DNA from: an uncultured Gemmata sp.
GTDB taxonomy: Bacteria > Planctomycetota > Planctomycetia > Gemmatales > Gemmataceae
DNA length: 64,000 nucleotides
Direction: 5' to 3'
Assembly (NCBI GenBank): GCA_937924775.1
Contig: CALDUT010000014.1
Location: forward strand, 1-64,000
A program made the translations under genes and the position numbers. The notes beneath the pieces are model-generated. The model did not search any database. It had not been told where the DNA came from and worked only from the letters and a program-made list of their open reading frames with translations. This document shows, piece after piece, positions 32,256-39,886 of the stretch; the stretch's first letter is position 1; each line of letters begins with the position of its first letter.

Positions 32256-33515
32256 TCACGCGGGTCGACGCACGGCCAACAGAACAGCCAACCCCGTGGC
32301 CGCCAGCGCGATGCCCGCGGCCATACCCAGCAGTACCGGACCGACGGCGTTGAAAGTCGCGATCATCTGACCCACCAGCAAATGCCCCAGGGGGGCGCTG
32401 GCACTGAGTGTCATCGCCCACCATGCCATCACCCGGCCGCGCATCGCGTCGGGCACGGCCAGTTGCAAAACCGATTGCCCCGTCGAGAGGTATAGGATTA
32501 AGCCAAAGCCCGTCGCCGTACAGCACAGAGCAGCCAGAAGAAGATTACCCGCCAACCCCAGACCGACGAGAGCCACGGCCGTACACGCCACCCCGACCAG
32601 CAAAAAGGCAGTCCGCCGCCGCACATTCCCAAAGGTCGCCGTCGCCAACGCCGCGAGCAACGCTCCGGCTCCTAAGGCACTCAAAAGCAGACTGTACGCG
32701 TCTTCCTTCATCCCCAGCCGCAAGCGGGTGTACGCGGGTAGTACCGTGATCACGGGCCAACCAAAAACACACACAAAGAACGTGAAACCTACCAAAGCTC
32801 CCAATGCCGGATGCGAACGCAGGTAGCGGAAGCCATCCCACATCGAGCCGCGATGGGCCGGGTTATGGGTGTGTGGCTCCGGAATCCCCCCCAATGCGCG
32901 GAGTACGGCCAAAAAGCTGAGAGCATTCAATCCAAAGCACGCGGTCGCGCCAAGGGTGACCGGATTGGCATCAGGGGGAAGCCACGGATGAGCTGCATGG
33001 GCGAGGATGAAGCACACACCCGCCAACGCCGGTCCCAACATTCGCGCCCCATTGAATACGAGGGAATTCAAACCCACGGCATTGATGAGGTCTTCCTTGG
33101 GCACCAGATCCGGAACGAACGCCAACCGCGCTGGCAGATCAACTGCTTGAATCACCCCGTTGATCGCTACGAGCACCAGCACAATCGCTGGCAACGCGTA
33201 ACCGGTCGCTACAGTCACCGTTAAAGCCATCGCGTTGACAAGAAATGCCGTCTGCGTGGTGAAAACTAACTGCCGCTTGGGGGTCCGGTCGGCCAGCGCC
33301 CCACCCCATGGGCCCAAAAGAATGGTCGGCCCAATCTGGGCCACGATCAGCCATGAGGGCCAGCGCGGATCATGCGTGCGGTCGTACATCAGCCACATAA
33401 GCGCCGCCGACTGCATCCATGTACCCACAAAGGAGACAATCTGCCCGGTGAAGTAGCGCCGATAATACCGGTGCCGCAGCGAGCGGAAGGTGGTGGCTTG
33501 CAACGCCCGGAGCAT
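32256..33515 (-). CDS. MFS exporter, EntS/MFS_3-like
   Basis: 419 residues and about 11-12 hydrophobic segments. N-terminal FRSLRHRYYRRYFTGQIVSFVGTWMQS matches the start of EntS-type exporters. The loop motif is GPWGGALADRTPKRQLVF, and the matching loop of the second half is ATATFGNVRRRTAF. DMT or ABC alternatives are excluded by topology. The substrate (siderophore, drug or other) is unknown. It converges on the aldo/keto reductase gene. Confidence 0.9.
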   Translation of the reverse strand: MLRALQATTFRSLRHRYYRRYFTGQIVSFVGTWMQSAALMWLMYDRTHDPRWPSWLIVAQIGPTILLGPWGGALADRTPKRQLVFTTQTAFLVNAMALTVTVATGYALPAIVLVLVAINGVIQAVDLPARLAFVPDLVPKEDLINAVGLNSLVFNGARMLGPALAGVCFILAHAAHPWLPPDANPVTLGATACFGLNALSFLAVLRALGGIPEPHTHNPAHRGSMWDGFRYLRSHPALGALVGFTFFVCVFGWPVITVLPAYTRLRLGMKEDAYSLLLSALGAGALLAALATATFGNVRRRTAFLLVGVACTAVALVGLGLAGNLLLAALCCTATGFGLILYLSTGQSVLQLAVPDAMRGRVMAWWAMTLSASAPLGHLLVGQMIATFNAVGPVLLGMAAGIALAATGLAVLLAVRRPA

Positions 33516-33635
33516 GCGTTCCTCATGAAAAAACCTTCTCTCCTGTTCGATTTACAAAAACCGCGACGTACCAACGGATTTTCTTCCCCGAGAATCCTTT
33601 CCTGCTCTGCGGACAACAGCTTATAAGATGGCAGT

Positions 33636-36600
33636 ATGCATCGCGAGATTCGCACGGTTGACGACCCTTTCCGGTCGGAATCACCGCTAGGGTTGTATCT
33701 GTTCACCGCCATCATCGGTGGCTTGTTGGCCGCGGATCTGTGGCCGGTGGTGGCCAATTGGCTCAATGGGCAAGGCATCGAAACCTACTCGTGGCCGCGC
33801 GAGGTCCAGGGTTTCCGCTATGCACTGTTGGCCGCGATCCTCGGCGGGGCCCGTGTTCTTTACACCTCGCTCGAATCGCTTTTCGAAGGGCGTATCGGTG
33901 CCGATTTGGCGTTGGCCATCGCCGCGCTGGCCGCCATTTTGATGAAAGAACCGGTGGTGGCAGCAGAAGTGGTCTTCATCGGTTTGGTGGGAGAATGTCT
34001 GGAAGCCTACACGTTTTCGCGGACACAGCGAGCCTTGAGTCAGTTGGCGGAACTGTTTCCGAAACGCTGCTGGGTTCTGCGGGACGGGGTGGAGGTACGC
34101 ACCTTCACCGCCGATGTGATCGTGGGCGACAAAGTGGTGGTGAAGCCGGGAGGACGGGTTCCAGTCGATGGTGTCGTGGTGGAGGGCCGATCGGCCGTTG
34201 ATACCAGCGCCCTGACAGGAGAAAGCCTTCCGGTGGATAAAGGACCAGGCGATACCATCCTCGCCGGCTGCATTGTTCAGCATGGTGCACTGACGATTGA
34301 AGCACAGAAGGTCGCCAAAGAAACCGTCGCCGGGCAGGTGATTGAACTGACCGCGCAAGCGTTGAAGGACAAAGCCCCACTGGAACGCTACGCCGACAAA
34401 CTCGCCCGCTACTTCCTGCCGGTCGTGCTTGCACTGGCGCTTCTCACCTTCGCCGGCAACATCGCCTATCAACTCTCTGGAACACCGCCCCCCGGATTCC
34501 CCAAACCAACACTTCGCGCCGCAGCCAAAGTCGCGGCATATCCTGCGTTGGCGGTGTTGGTGGTTGCCTGCCCGTGTGCGTTGATTCTGGCGACACCGGC
34601 CGCGGTGATCGCGGCTTTGGGCCGGTTGGCCGGCACAGGGGTCCTCATCAAAGGCGGTTCGGCCCTCGAACGGCTCGCCAAGACCACAGCCTTCGCTTTC
34701 GACAAAACCGGTACTCTCACCGAAGGTCGGTTACAACTGGGCGATGTCATTCCCCTCCAGGGAACCCGCGACGAGCTTCTGATCGTCGCGGCCACGGCGG
34801 AGCAACGCAGCGAACACCCAATCGCGCAGCTGTTGGTTCAGCATGCCGGAGAACAGAACTGGCCACTGCCGGCGGTGGAGGAATTTCAAGCCCACCCTGG
34901 TGCGGGAATCACTGCCAAAGCCGGGGGTTCTACGATTGTAGTCGGCACGCGCCGATTGCTCGAAGAACAGGGCCTGTGGATTCCTGCCGACGTGATTGCG
35001 GCCCTCGAGCAGCTCGATGCCACCGGCCAAACAGCGCTTCTGGTGGCCCGCGACAGTCAGGTTATTGGGGTCATTGGGGCCCGCGACACTCTCCGCCCAG
35101 AAGCGGCCCCAGTCGTGGCCGACTTACGCGCGTTGGGAATTGCTCCAGTAGCACTGCTGACAGGCGACCGCGCCGCCGCGGCCCGCGCTGTGGCCGAGCA
35201 AATCCCCGTCACGGAGTTTCACGCAGAGTTGTTTCCAGTTCAAAAAGCGGAGTGGGTCGCCACCCAAAGTGAAAAGACGGCCGCCACCGGTTCTTACGTT
35301 GCGTTTGTGGGCGATGGAATCAATGACGCTCCGGCACTGGCTCGGGCCGGGGTGGGTATCGCCATCGGCGGGGGACGCGGAACCGATATTGCCGCGGAAG
35401 CCGGCGATATCGTGATGATGGGCGAACCCCTCAAGCCCCTGCCGCTGTTGGTGCGGCTGGCCCGAGAAACAGTTCGCATTATTCGGCAGAATATCCTCAT
35501 TTTCGCCTTTGCCGTCAATCTGGTCGGCGTGTTGTTGACTGGTTGGCTGTGGCCACTATTCGCCACTTCGCCGGATTGGTACGAATCGGCCCCGCTGGTA
35601 GGAGTCATTTACCATCAATTCGCCTCGCTCGCGGTGTTGTTGAATTCGATGCGCTTGCTCGCCTTTGAACGGGCCGCGACCAACCGCACACTGGCTCGTC
35701 TCAAATCGACCACGCAGCAGCTCGAACAGTGGGTCGAGCGTTTTTCGATAGACGAGGTTCTTCACGAACTGACACACCAGTGGAAAGCAGTCGGTGCCGC
35801 GGCAGCGATCCTGGTTGTGATGGCGTGGTTGGCGACCAGTTGCGCGCAGATCGACGTGGGAGAAGTGGGCATTGTTCGCCGCTTCGGTACCGTCGCGGCG
35901 GAATTGGAACCTGGCTTGCACCTCCGTTGGCCGTGGCCCATCGAAACGATCACGCGTGTGCGGCCAGATGAGGTACACACCCTGGAAATCGGTTTCCGCT
36001 ACTTGTCCAACGGCTCGCCGGGGGCCTCGATGGGGAATTTGTGGGCCAGCCCGCATGGCAACGAGATCGCCCCGCTGACTGATGAAGCCGTGATGATCAC
36101 CGGCGATGGCGATTTGGTTGTGGCATTGGCCACCGTGCGTTTCCGCACCAGCCAGCCGCGGCAATTTCTCCTGGCAAGCAGCAATCCCGAGGCGGTGTTG
36201 CGTTCGAGTGCTGAATCGGTCTTGCGTGAATTGGTGGCCAGTCATCGGTTTCTCGAATTGCTCACACTGCGGCGCCTCGAGCTGGAACGACTAGCTTTGA
36301 TTCGCTTGCATCAGCGACTGGCCGCGGTAGCCCCGGCGGGGTTGGGCGTCACACTCGATAGCTTCACCCTGCACGATCTGCACCCACCACCGGAGGTGGT
36401 GGATTCGTATCACGCGGTCGCTAAAGCGATCCAAGAACGGGACCGCTTGATCAACGAAGCGACCGCTGATGCCATCCGCATCATCCGCCGCGCCGAAGAA
36501 GAAGAAACCCGGCTGAAGAATCAGGCGGCGGCAGAAGCCCATGCCAAACTGGCTGCAGCTCGTGCGGATCGCGACGCGTTTCTGGCTTGGGCGGCCATAC

Positions 36601-36908
36601 GTCATAAGCTCAGCGAAGCGGAAGAGAAAAGCCTGGCCGCACAACGGGAAAGTCGCCTCCGAGCGGGCCACGATGCCGCGAGCGTGGATCGCGATTTGGC
36701 CGCGCGGCGCGAAAAAATCCTCGCCGAACGCCGGACCATTGTCGAAATCCAGTTGACTTACCAAACCCTCGTCGACGTTCTCCGCGGCCGTGACAAAGTG
36801 CTGATCGACGCTGCGGATATCCCCGGGCGACGTCACCTGTTCCTCCTGGAACCCGACCTGCTGCGCTTGCCCATGCTGCCGGCCAACCCCAAAGACCGGG
36901 AACCGTAA
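33636..36908 (+). CDS. P1B-type metal ATPase fused to an HflK-like SPFH domain
   Basis: One uninterrupted frame of 1090 residues. Residues 1-680 form a heavy-metal P-type ATPase without an N-terminal HMA domain: TGES 194-197, the metal-site motif CPC 312-314, phosphorylation motif DKTGT 356-360, SEHP near 393-395 and GDGINDAPAL from 559. After helix pairs to about 675 comes a linker (to 715), a new membrane helix (about 718-735), then DVGEVGIVRRFGTVAAELEP and LRWPWPIETITRVRPDE, the start of an HflK/prohibitin-type SPFH domain. A long Ala/Glu/Arg-rich helix (about 905-1030) and a C-terminal segment like that of HflK complete it. CPC suggests Cu, Ag or Zn/Cd transport. The SPFH part may scaffold the pump in the membrane or link it to FtsH; this is inferred. 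Confidence 0.93.
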   Translation: MHREIRTVDDPFRSESPLGLYLFTAIIGGLLAADLWPVVANWLNGQGIETYSWPREVQGFRYALLAAILGGARVLYTSLESLFEGRIGADLALAIAALAAILMKEPVVAAEVVFIGLVGECLEAYTFSRTQRALSQLAELFPKRCWVLRDGVEVRTFTADVIVGDKVVVKPGGRVPVDGVVVEGRSAVDTSALTGESLPVDKGPGDTILAGCIVQHGALTIEAQKVAKETVAGQVIELTAQALKDKAPLERYADKLARYFLPVVLALALLTFAGNIAYQLSGTPPPGFPKPTLRAAAKVAAYPALAVLVVACPCALILATPAAVIAALGRLAGTGVLIKGGSALERLAKTTAFAFDKTGTLTEGRLQLGDVIPLQGTRDELLIVAATAEQRSEHPIAQLLVQHAGEQNWPLPAVEEFQAHPGAGITAKAGGSTIVVGTRRLLEEQGLWIPADVIAALEQLDATGQTALLVARDSQVIGVIGARDTLRPEAAPVVADLRALGIAPVALLTGDRAAAARAVAEQIPVTEFHAELFPVQKAEWVATQSEKTAATGSYVAFVGDGINDAPALARAGVGIAIGGGRGTDIAAEAGDIVMMGEPLKPLPLLVRLARETVRIIRQNILIFAFAVNLVGVLLTGWLWPLFATSPDWYESAPLVGVIYHQFASLAVLLNSMRLLAFERAATNRTLARLKSTTQQLEQWVERFSIDEVLHELTHQWKAVGAAAAILVVMAWLATSCAQIDVGEVGIVRRFGTVAAELEPGLHLRWPWPIETITRVRPDEVHTLEIGFRYLSNGSPGASMGNLWASPHGNEIAPLTDEAVMITGDGDLVVALATVRFRTSQPRQFLLASSNPEAVLRSSAESVLRELVASHRFLELLTLRRLELERLALIRLHQRLAAVAPAGLGVTLDSFTLHDLHPPPEVVDSYHAVAKAIQERDRLINEATADAIRIIRRAEEEETRLKNQAAAEAHAKLAAARADRDAFLAWAAIRHKLSEAEEKSLAAQRESRLRAGHDAASVDRDLAARREKILAERRTIVEIQLTYQTLVDVLRGRDKVLIDAADIPGRRHLFLLEPDLLRLPMLPANPKDREP

Positions 36909-37042
36909 ATTCTATTCATGGGCCGCATCAGCCAATTGGCAACTTCTCCAGAGCAAGCGGAATAATCAACCTATCAAAACAGTGGAGAGAAGTAGTCCCG
37001 TAACCAAAGACGCCTTCTTCCCCAAAGCGACCTACCCACGAA

Positions 37043-37519
37043 TCAGACTCCCAACGCTTTCCGTTTCTCAGCGATGAACGGCAAATGATGCGGGATGTGG
37101 GTGATCGCGGCTTGGATGACTTTCTCCAGTGTCTGCAAGCCTTTTTTGCTGTGGTTACCGGTGAGTTGCAGTTGTTCGGGGCTTAACAAACGGATGATCC
37201 GCGCCATCTGTCGCCGCGTGACATCGATGAGAGCCAGCTCCTCCTCCAAATCGCGTTCGTGATACTTCAAGTGAGCCACAAAGGCGTTTTCATCCGCAGC
37301 CAGCAGTAGCGGCGTGTCGGGCGCCATCGCGAGGATGCGTTTCATCCGTTCCACGAGAATTGGGTCGAAGTCGGCGATGTGACAGACAACTTCGAGAGTA
37401 CTCCAGCGTCCCGGGATGGGCCGTGCAAGAAGCTGTTCGCGGGTCATGCCGGCGACCGCCTGGCGGAGCTGGGCTACACCGGCCAGAAGTTGTTCGGCCA
37501 ATTCCTGCGTCGTTGCCAT
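37043..37519 (-). CDS. DinB-superfamily protein
   Basis: 158 residues, four-helix bundle pattern. LAGVAQLRQAVAGMTREQLL and GRWSTLEVVCHIADFDPILVERM supply the first metal-binding His. The C-terminal ITHIPHHLPFIAEKR supplies the other two, matching the DinB/YfiT three-His site. Relatives include thiol S-transferases and damage-inducible proteins; the reaction is not predictable. Confidence 0.85.
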   Translation of the reverse strand: MATTQELAEQLLAGVAQLRQAVAGMTREQLLARPIPGRWSTLEVVCHIADFDPILVERMKRILAMAPDTPLLLAADENAFVAHLKYHERDLEEELALIDVTRRQMARIIRLLSPEQLQLTGNHSKKGLQTLEKVIQAAITHIPHHLPFIAEKRKALGV

Positions 37520-38188: not shown

Positions 38189-39646
38189 CTAGCGGCGGTA
38201 TTCGAGTCGCACACGCAAATACGCTACCTGGCGCAAGACCACTTCCATGGTTGCGTTGGGGTCGTAATCGAACGGGGCGTGTTCTTTGGCGACTAATTTG
38301 AGCATCTCGAAGGCCCGTTGCCGTAGGAGGGCGTCGCGGCGTTCCATCGCTTCAAGCAAAACGGGAATGGCGGCGGCACCGCGAGCCACAATCTCCATTG
38401 CGGAGGCTTTGATGGCCTGATCGTCGGTGAGGTTCTCCACGGCACGGCGAAGTTTTTCCATTTCCAAAATGGCGTGGAAGGCCCCGCGGTTGGCCACGAA
38501 TGTCGGTGGTGGCGTGGGTGTGCCGACGGATGCCGGTTCGGCTTTGGGTGCCGGTTTCGCCGCTGGCCAGGCGGATTCGTTCATGGCCTCCGGCGGGGTG
38601 ATGACCGAACCGGGGGGGAGATTCGCGGGTTGCGGTGGCTTGGCCGAAGGGGACGGAGCCACCGGGTTGGCCGCCGAAGCCTCTGCCGACCGCGGCATAG
38701 GTGTTGCCGTTATGGCTGGCGTGGCCGGGGGAATCGCGGTTGGAAGGTCGGCGGCGGCTATCGTCTCCGGGTTCCCCGCGGTAGCAACAGGGGCTGTGGA
38801 TGGCACAACTCGCGGCACTGGCGGAGACAATCGAGTTGGAGCCACGGGTAGGCCGGCCTTCGCGGCAGCCATGCGGGCATCGAAATGGCGTGTGAAACCA
38901 TCCTCTTCAAAACTGCGGCCCAAATAAGCATCAATCGCCACTTGATCGTTCACGAGTTCGTGTGGCGTTCCGTGAGTGACCACTTTGCCTTCGGTGATCA
39001 GATAAACCCGGTTAGCCGTGCGGAAGACCTCGCGAACATTGTGATCGGTAATCAGAATGCCGATGCCTGAATCGGCCAATTCGCGGATGTTTTCGCGAAT
39101 GTCTTCAGTGGTTTTGGGATCGACCGCAGCAAACGGTTCATCAAGCAGAATCAACAGCGGCTCACACGCCAAACAGCGGGCGATCTCCAAGCGGCGTTTC
39201 TCACCTCCGGAACAACGGCCAGCGATATTCTTGCGAACATGCTCCAGTTTGAAGCGGGCCAATACTTCGTTGGTTCGCTGCCAGCGTTCGGCTTTGGTGA
39301 GCCGGCGACCGAGTTTGCGGCTTCGCGGCAGGGCTTCGAGAATGGCTAGAAGGTTGCCTTCCACGGTCAACTTGCGGAAAACGCTCGGCTCTTGCGAAAG
39401 GTATCCCATCCCGCGGCGGGCCCGCAAATACATGGGCAATGTGGTCACATCTTCGCCATTGAAAATGACGCGGCCGTCATTGGGTGTGATCTGCCCGGTG
39501 GCCATGCGGAAGCTGGTCGTTTTCCCGGCACCGTTAGGCCCCAATAAGCCCACGATCTCACCGGCATTGACATTGAACGAGACGCCGTTGACCACGGCTC
39601 GGCGGCCGTAATACTTGACCAGCCCTTCCACTTCGAGAAGCGGCAT
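38189..39646 (-). CDS. lptB: LPS export ABC ATPase LptB with long C-terminal extension
   Basis: 485 residues from ATG 39646 (GTG 39658 also possible). Residues 1-245 are a complete LptB-type ATPase: Walker A GPNGAGKTT 36-44, YLSQEPSVFRKLTVEGN, signature CSGGEKRRLEIARC, Walker B LLILLDEPFAAVDP and switch His in LITDHNVREV. LptB powers LPS extraction from the inner membrane. E. coli LptB is about 241 residues; here a Pro/Ala-rich linker (about 260-385) leads to a helical C-terminal domain (about 390-485, HEAT-like: PVLLEAMERRDALLRQRAFE). No lptF/G/C genes are adjacent. It fits with waaA for an LPS-bearing host. Confidence 0.93.
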   Translation of the reverse strand: MPLLEVEGLVKYYGRRAVVNGVSFNVNAGEIVGLLGPNGAGKTTSFRMATGQITPNDGRVIFNGEDVTTLPMYLRARRGMGYLSQEPSVFRKLTVEGNLLAILEALPRSRKLGRRLTKAERWQRTNEVLARFKLEHVRKNIAGRCSGGEKRRLEIARCLACEPLLILLDEPFAAVDPKTTEDIRENIRELADSGIGILITDHNVREVFRTANRVYLITEGKVVTHGTPHELVNDQVAIDAYLGRSFEEDGFTRHFDARMAAAKAGLPVAPTRLSPPVPRVVPSTAPVATAGNPETIAAADLPTAIPPATPAITATPMPRSAEASAANPVAPSPSAKPPQPANLPPGSVITPPEAMNESAWPAAKPAPKAEPASVGTPTPPPTFVANRGAFHAILEMEKLRRAVENLTDDQAIKASAMEIVARGAAAIPVLLEAMERRDALLRQRAFEMLKLVAKEHAPFDYDPNATMEVVLRQVAYLRVRLEYRR

Positions 39647-39886
39647 CGCGATCCTCACATTCAGGGGTTAACCTGATTACCCGAAGGCTACTAGTCGTGC
39701 AAGATGCACTTGCCCGACGTGATGACAGGCGAGATCCATCGGAAGTGGGCTGAGGATTTGACGAGGGGCTTAAAACTAAAGCCAACGGTGAATGAGGAGA
39801 AGCCGCCAAGAAAAGGCGACAAGAAGTCTTCGTGTCCCGGTCGGAGTTTGGCCGGGGTTGGGGTTCTTGTCGGAAGTGGTTGCGGA

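Follow-up and report, generated by a model that had tools for sequence, protein, structure and literature searches.

The closest described systems are an SPFH cage and a scaffolded metal pump. In E. coli, HflK and HflC form a cage with FtsH (SPFH3 group, PDB 7WI3/9CZ2), which is the nearest precedent for a cage here, and, according to the available parts of PMC12048511 and PMC13220708, the part of HflK/C that corresponds to the long helix region of the protein described below builds the cage roof. The nearest precedent for scaffolded P1B pumps is PacL1/CtpC, where a scaffold protein keeps the pump in membrane foci and is needed for pump abundance (PMC9374683, available part). The gene examined here joins a pump and a cage subunit of these kinds. 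In the window, a stretch of 64,000 nucleotides from an uncultured Gemmata sp. (contig CALDUT010000014.1), the plus-strand open reading frame at 33636-36908, recognised by open reading frame, domain and homology searches, encodes a protein of 1090 residues comprising a P1B metal pump and an HflK-like SPFH domain. On balance, and with some reserve, we favour the interpretation that this fusion is a heavy-metal exporter doubling as a third subunit, which we name HflK', of the HflK/HflC membrane cage.

The fusion shares with the HflK/HflC cage proteins a membrane helix followed by an SPFH domain and a long helix, and hflC and hflK adjoin its gene in many relatives; any role in a cage roof is assigned by analogy. 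It differs from HflK in being a third paralogue, in which a whole metal pump replaces the cytosolic N-terminus. With P1B ATPases such as CopA and ZntA, it shares the motif set and the fold, but it exhibits no N-terminal metal-binding domain detectable by Pfam and has an extra ninth helix and a C-terminal SPFH domain. In the available part of the PacL1/CtpC paper, scaffolding is done by a DUF1490 protein encoded apart from the pump, and the foci are independent of flotillin, whereas the link in the fusion is covalent and of the HflK type; a Pfam scan of the fusion protein found no DUF1490 domain. An SPFH fusion of an ArsP_1/SO_0444-type permease (locus L066, discussed below) likewise combines a metal exporter with an HflK-like SPFH domain, followed by hflC and hflK, but its transporter family is unrelated, its SPFH domain forms a clade of its own, and it lacks the W-x3-H motif of the P1B fusion.

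The sequence-only reading of this locus had described a complete CPC-type metal pump continuing in one frame into a membrane helix and then into an HflK-like SPFH domain that includes the long helix, and this architecture was borne out. The frame runs for 1090 codons without a stop until the final TAA (longest stop-free runs in the other five frames: 85, 308, 347, 122, and 112 codons), and the pattern of GC content by codon position is unbroken across the joint between pump and SPFH. Pfam matches to the E1-E2_ATPase domain (residues 140-332, 175 bits), the HAD hydrolase domain (351-572, 96 bits) and Band_7 (738-946, 68 bits) are all above cut-off. The pump part, delimited by Pfam, NCBIfam, the AlphaFold2 (AF2) model and Foldseek, comprises residues 18-676 (33687-35663) and exhibits the whole set of P1B-type features, namely the E1-E2 ATPase and HAD domains together with the TGES (residues 194-197, 34215-34226), CPC (312-314, 34569-34577), DKTGT phosphorylation (356-360, 34701-34715), HP and GDGxND (GDGIND, 559-564, 35310-35327) motifs. 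In a comparison of 43 fusions these motifs are invariant or nearly so, the invariant residues being G195 and E196, C312-P313-C314, D356-K357-T358-G359-T360, H394 of the HP motif, and G559, D560, G561, N563 and D564.

The alignments place a conserved H-x3-S-x2-V-x2-N-x2-R-L-L pattern in the last membrane helix of the pump (residues 660-675, 35613-35660). It is followed by a linker of variable sequence with predicted helices (677-715, 35664-35780; alignment and model), which is presumably cytosolic, and by the ninth membrane helix (716-733, 35781-35834; PDB match and model), which aligns with the membrane helix of E. coli HflK. The SPFH/Band_7 domain (738-946, 35847-36473) was identified by Pfam and by PDB match, and the long helix with the helices that follow it (919-1049, 36390-36782) is taken from the AF2 model. 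That model, built from 43 rows, has a mean pLDDT (predicted local distance difference test) of 82.2 and shows the pump helices as far as residue 676, helices in the linker at 684-714, a helix at 716-733, the SPFH strands within 736-916, a helix of 72 residues at 919-990 and further helices to 1049; it is poor at residues 789-812 and 1055-1090. P1B pumps terminate in the cytosol. HflK and HflC face the periplasm (PMC2636767, available part), so one additional helix would suit the topology of the joined protein.

When the full model was compared with the PDB by Foldseek, the best rows were copper and zinc P1B pumps (7r0g and 4umw, respectively), and the best 50 of 701 rows were P-type pumps, plus one titled only 'membrane transport protein'. 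As these top rows are all on the pump side, the identity of the SPFH half rests on the PDB sequence match, in which the top relative of the C-terminal half is E. coli HflK (E 1e-13), with an alignment starting at the HflK membrane helix. Features of the HflK-HflC (SPFH3) group in the wide sense were found at the sequence and gene level: a membrane helix, an SPFH domain, a long helix and a linked pair of paralogous SPFH genes, which in the window genome sits on a different contig (C20) from the fusion. A scan of the plus strand from 33450 to 37100 for promoter-like sites returned none.

With regard to the transported metal, the pump scores 545 bits against TIGR01525 (cut-off 346) and 408.5 bits against the cadmium group model TIGR01512 (cut-off 313.5), and remains under the cut-off of the copper model TIGR01511 (383.9 bits against 397). 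On these scores, above the cut-off for the Cd/Zn group and short of that for Cu, a Zn-like metal is the more probable one; in a phmmer search of the PDB, the best bits were those of copper pumps. An assignment of the metal from motifs was set aside, the conserved pattern of the last helix not being tied to a characterised group.

The fusion is widespread in planctomycetes, as a search for relatives suggested by the sequence-only reading revealed. By our count, 78 of the 95 genomes of the window's family carry it as one open frame from the pump to at least query residue 769. In G001, G025, and G091, a break of the frame or of the contig interrupts the pump, while the joint itself lies in one frame. 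An order-level search (102 genomes) found the fusion in members of both families. With a 400-residue query over the joint, a one-frame span was found in at least 47 of 327 genomes of the class (families f3, f4, and f7) and in five of 392 genomes of the phylum, including one outside the class (G486), whose fusion of 993 residues exhibits all three Pfam domains; the class and phylum counts are lower bounds, as few candidates were scored per genome. A scan of named genomes by a single peptide pattern from the last pump helix yielded 106 relatives, of which 80 were kept. Planctomycete titles are carried by 78 of these 80 loci, and the other two, titled Acidobacteriota (L151) and Bacteroidales (L098), are from metagenome bins, where the title may not reflect the origin of the contig. 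The nearest named relative is Gemmata sp. SKYG68.

This distribution also bears on whether the fusion is an assembly or sequencing artefact, or a chance read-through of two neighbouring genes, which we consider extremely improbable. A terminator-like hairpin does lie within the joint (35720-35739), and the gene is split into two frames in G001 and G025, though the break is inside the pump and away from the joint. Nevertheless, the number of hairpins is about that of shuffled sequences (six found; mean 4.2, standard deviation 1.9), and the same single frame recurs in many assemblies, including the single-contig genomes G011, G071, G074, and G087. Full-length matches in a single frame reach down to approximately 45-50% identity, and those over the 400-residue joint stretch down to approximately 33%, which in practice excludes the missed stop or frameshift near 35760 that the sequence-only reading had named as a possible refutation; read-through and frameshift are thus ruled out by the relatives. 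At another named locus (L055, 4920-8313, genome G144), the pump part extends across two overlapping frames away from the joint, reflecting a frameshift or an assembly error.

The SPFH half proved to be HflK-like rather than HflK itself, which corrects the earlier reading on this point. Its score against the HflK equivalog model TIGR01933 is 107.3 bits, below the cut-off of 159.4. In a tree of 108 SPFH rows and 299 columns, which included the SPFH genes directly downstream of the fusions, all 27 first-downstream genes fall in a clade with E. coli HflC (support 100), and 22 second-downstream genes of P1B-fused operons group with E. coli HflK (96), whereas 28 of the 30 P1B-fused rows come together (90) outside both clades. 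The window genome's own hflC (100) and hflK (94) lie beside the operonic copies of L041/G074. Identity with HflK is ruled out by the NCBIfam score and the tree, and sequence comparison makes the fused SPFH domain a third paralogue alongside HflC and HflK. A feature of this paralogue is W-x3-H (residues 803-807, 36042-36056; alignments and motif count), located in the poorly modelled insert (789-812) that is absent from HflK and HflC rows. W803 and H807 are invariant in 22 aligned fusion rows, as they are in six rows of a six-helix type of HflK' described below. Among the tree rows, the motif is present in 27/30 P1B-fused and 5/5 six-helix rows, in 0/5 permease-fused rows, and in 0/27 first-downstream and 0/27 second-downstream rows; one of the window genome's own two rows matches the pattern, elsewhere judging by the sequence (WAAAH in hflK). 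H916 and D824/D914 are conserved in the fusions as well. On these alignments, W-x3-H is a link between the P1B-fused and six-helix types, and it could be a candidate metal or partner site.

The gene neighbourhood points to HflC and HflK as partners. Adjacency was counted in the 80 named loci by non-overlapping SPFH domains located downstream on the same strand. Two further SPFH genes follow the fusion at 47 loci, hflC and then hflK where they are placed in the tree, and in 44 of these 47 the first lies no more than 350 bp away; at seven loci no SPFH neighbour is seen and the contig ends too soon. At L041, NCBIfam identifies the first downstream gene as HflC (151.6 bits, cut-off 134.4), and the second is HflK-like (112.9 bits, under the cut-off of 159.4). 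When the fusion is distant from hflC/hflK, an HflC-like gene is present elsewhere in 10/10 genomes tested, with 32-61% identity to that of L041, and in G101 (94% complete) the trio accounts for all three SPFH genes. The sequence-only reading had proposed to look for separate hflC and ftsH genes in the window genome, and these were found: the hflC/hflK pair mentioned above, and FtsH (690 residues) on contig C11. A second M41 (FtsH-like) protein of approximately 735 residues, encoded on contig C23, has a long N-terminal region that by eye looks unlike that of FtsH. Across the 95 family genomes, with hflC scored as present at a threshold of E 1e-20, 76 have both fusion and hflC, 5 the fusion only, 3 hflC only and 11 neither (Fisher p 1.7e-8, a test that ignores kinship); for the 68 genomes at least 90% complete, the corresponding numbers are 62, 3, 0, and 3 (p 4e-4). 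The three such genomes lacking both (G031, G051, and G094) belong to three genera, and G051 is a single contig whose congeners G052-G054 have both.

Other metal exporters are associated with SPFH genes in a similar way. At four loci outside the class (L059, L060, L063, and L066), Pfam shows an ArsP_1 permease joined to an HflK-like SPFH domain, with additional SPFH genes adjacent, and this type of fusion spans the joint in 14 of the 392 phylum genomes, from eight families. NCBIfam was applied to one of these permease fusions, L066 (1545-3719), which scores 390.9 bits against the model for SO_0444 Cu/Zn efflux proteins (cut-off 300); directly after it come hflC at 192.8 bits and hflK at 200.3 bits, each exceeding its own cut-off. 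A ZIP gene is located immediately upstream at L063 (Pfam), with a homologue at L066. The five permease-fused rows form their own clade in the SPFH tree (99). In a third arrangement, found at L056 (6263-12234), L057, L058, L061, L067, and L068, a six-helix part joined to SPFH is encoded with two SPFH genes and a separate P1B pump; the five second-downstream genes of these six-helix operons form a separate clade (100). The separate pumps of L056 and L057 exhibit CPG in place of CPC. An ArsP_1-type permease gene lies upstream at L056, L057, L058, and L067 (by Pfam for L056 and L057), and a NicO-type gene downstream at L057, L058, and L067 (by Pfam for L057). The N-terminal part of the six-helix HflK', of approximately 280 residues, has no Pfam match in L056, L057, and L061 and no NCBIfam match in L056, the one protein scanned, and its AF2 model is poor (mean pLDDT 57). 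In a quick pump tree of 50 rows, which gave long-branch warnings, the window's pump groups with the trio pumps plus five further rows (support 90), and the fused pumps (24 rows, 96) and the separate trio pumps (6 rows, 99) form distinct clades. A derivation of the fused pump from the separate trio pump by simple joining is not supported, as the clades differ, and the distinct clades of fused and separate pumps make more than one recruitment of metal exporters probable. In E. coli K-12 (507000-517000), the SPFH gene qmcA, together with ybbJ, is located between cueR and fetAB, approximately 3 kb from copA, and is thus a further example of an SPFH gene surrounded by metal genes.

Other functions of the SPFH half have to be weighed against a third cage subunit. 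It is possible, though unlikely, that this half by itself drives oligomerisation of the pump into a metal-efflux microdomain in which HflC and HflK have no part, as the 'efflux platforms' of mycobacteria formed by PacL1/CtpC would suggest (PMC9374683, available part), and the separation of the fusion from hflC/hflK in the window's genus agrees with it. The gene linkage and the co-occurrence with hflC speak for partners, as do the separate places of HflC, HflK and the fused SPFH in the tree, which are expected of a hetero-oligomer. The earlier suggestion of a pump carrying its own cage subunit stands insofar as both are in one chain, but the subunit is a third paralogue that tends to accompany HflC and HflK, and simple self-caging is the less likely reading. 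A distinctly unlikely alternative is that the SPFH half brings the pump to FtsH, its amount being set by regulated degradation and cage-building being secondary. FtsH is encoded in the window genome, and MgtA is a P-type ATPase. In its available part, PMC13220708 names mgtA among the known FtsH substrates, and reports that E. coli FtsH binds the cage via HflK and that the joint replacement of R141, E142, and R185 by alanine weakens recovery with FtsH. The position of R185 is Arg in 28/30 fused rows compared with 12/27 second-downstream HflK rows; within the window genome, the fusion has Arg there and HflK has Ser. In contrast, the R141 position, which is His in the window protein, does not discriminate (Arg in 26/30 fused, 20/27 HflK, and 21/27 HflC rows), and E142 is not conserved, being absent from the residues listed for 28/30 fused rows, in a region of poor alignment. 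As a sign of coupling, this residue pattern is suggestive only, and proteolytic coupling by itself would leave the SPFH fusion of another exporter family unexplained. Arg191, named in the available part of PMC12048511, does not match the E. coli sequence under our numbering and was left out of this comparison. Very unlikely, finally, is a periplasmic metal-accepting or regulatory domain that builds no cage: the SPFH domain would sit on the exit side of the pump, and the invariant W803/H807, the distribution of W-x3-H and the conserved H916 and D824/D914 would suit such a role, whereas the long helix of cage assembly is retained in the model, the gene is linked to hflC and hflK, and the motif is absent from all five permease-fused rows.

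Several observations weigh against the fusion being a third cage subunit. The fused frame is absent in 14/95 family genomes. Among the named loci, which partly repeat genomes of our G-numbered set, 8/80 have just one SPFH neighbour (three of them near a contig end) and 18/80 have none despite at least 2.4 kb of room; in the window's genus, the fusion gene lies apart from hflC/hflK. In addition to kinship, the co-occurrence may be inflated by single assembly gaps that delete both neighbouring genes. The SPFH tree was obtained by a quick search and places two of the 30 fused rows (L064 and L151) outside the main fused clade, adjoining the HflK clade, and the fused and trio pumps are not one pump before and after fusion. 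The AF2 model is of a single chain, and its predicted template modelling score (pTM) of 0.63 leaves the placement of the domains uncertain. The evidence for cage assembly by the fusion is indirect, comprising sequence, gene linkage and analogy.

With these points taken into account, a mixed cage appears likelier than self-caging, because HflK' tends to be retained along with HflC and HflK, in many cases as neighbouring genes, and the permease-SPFH fusion and the trio beside a separate P1B pump point the same way as the P1B fusion. In such a mixed cage, the pump would sit in the membrane with both ends cytosolic, the ninth helix would bring the SPFH domain to the periplasmic side, and there the domain would interlock with HflC and HflK, holding the pumps at the cage wall. 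Metal would then exit the cell on the cage-covered side, into a scaffolded patch. As the cage also houses FtsH in E. coli, pump stability or removal may be set there, and a coupling of pump level to proteolysis is possible; cage assembly, the metal and the coupling to FtsH are all inferred. A bolder extension, which we consider decidedly doubtful, is a dedicated periplasmic metal chamber of planctomycetes, in which P1B pumps and ArsP_1/SO_0444-type permeases joined to an extra HflK/C paralogue would release metal under the dome.

Two further observations concern other genes of the window genome. On contig C9, a gene for a reverse-transcriptase-like protein (by eye) lies directly beside a slipin-like SPFH gene (318-1289 and 1327-2328 of locus L001). 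In the window itself, the minus-strand gene at 38189-39658 encodes an LptB-like ABC-transporter ATPase (by eye) with a long Pro/Ala-rich C-terminal extension.

Both halves of the fusion are known as families; what appears new is their combination, together with the existence of a third paralogue and the recurring association with metal exporters. Among the literature matches listed, drawn from a collection with few subscription papers and no bioRxiv content, no title or abstract opening describes a pump-SPFH or exporter-SPFH fusion, and a term search of the main text of a 2009 survey of prokaryotic SPFH proteins (PMC2636767) found neither 'ATPase' nor 'transporter'. The fusion addresses the question of what SPFH cages enclose besides FtsH, and why: cargo and cage subunit are present in one polypeptide across a whole bacterial group, with a parallel case involving a different metal exporter, and the claim that HflK/HflC cages can include a cargo-bearing third subunit is testable. 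If the metal chamber were real, it could retain the metal, hand it on to metalloproteins of the periplasm or shield the remaining envelope from it, and SPFH cages would serve as compartments not for FtsH alone but also for ions. Since the fusion is widely kept, often beside the genes of the other two cage subunits, Gemmata-like bacteria probably anchor metal export in a protein-scaffolded membrane patch, which would connect metal homeostasis with membrane microdomains, and perhaps with quality control by FtsH, in bacteria noted for unusual membranes.

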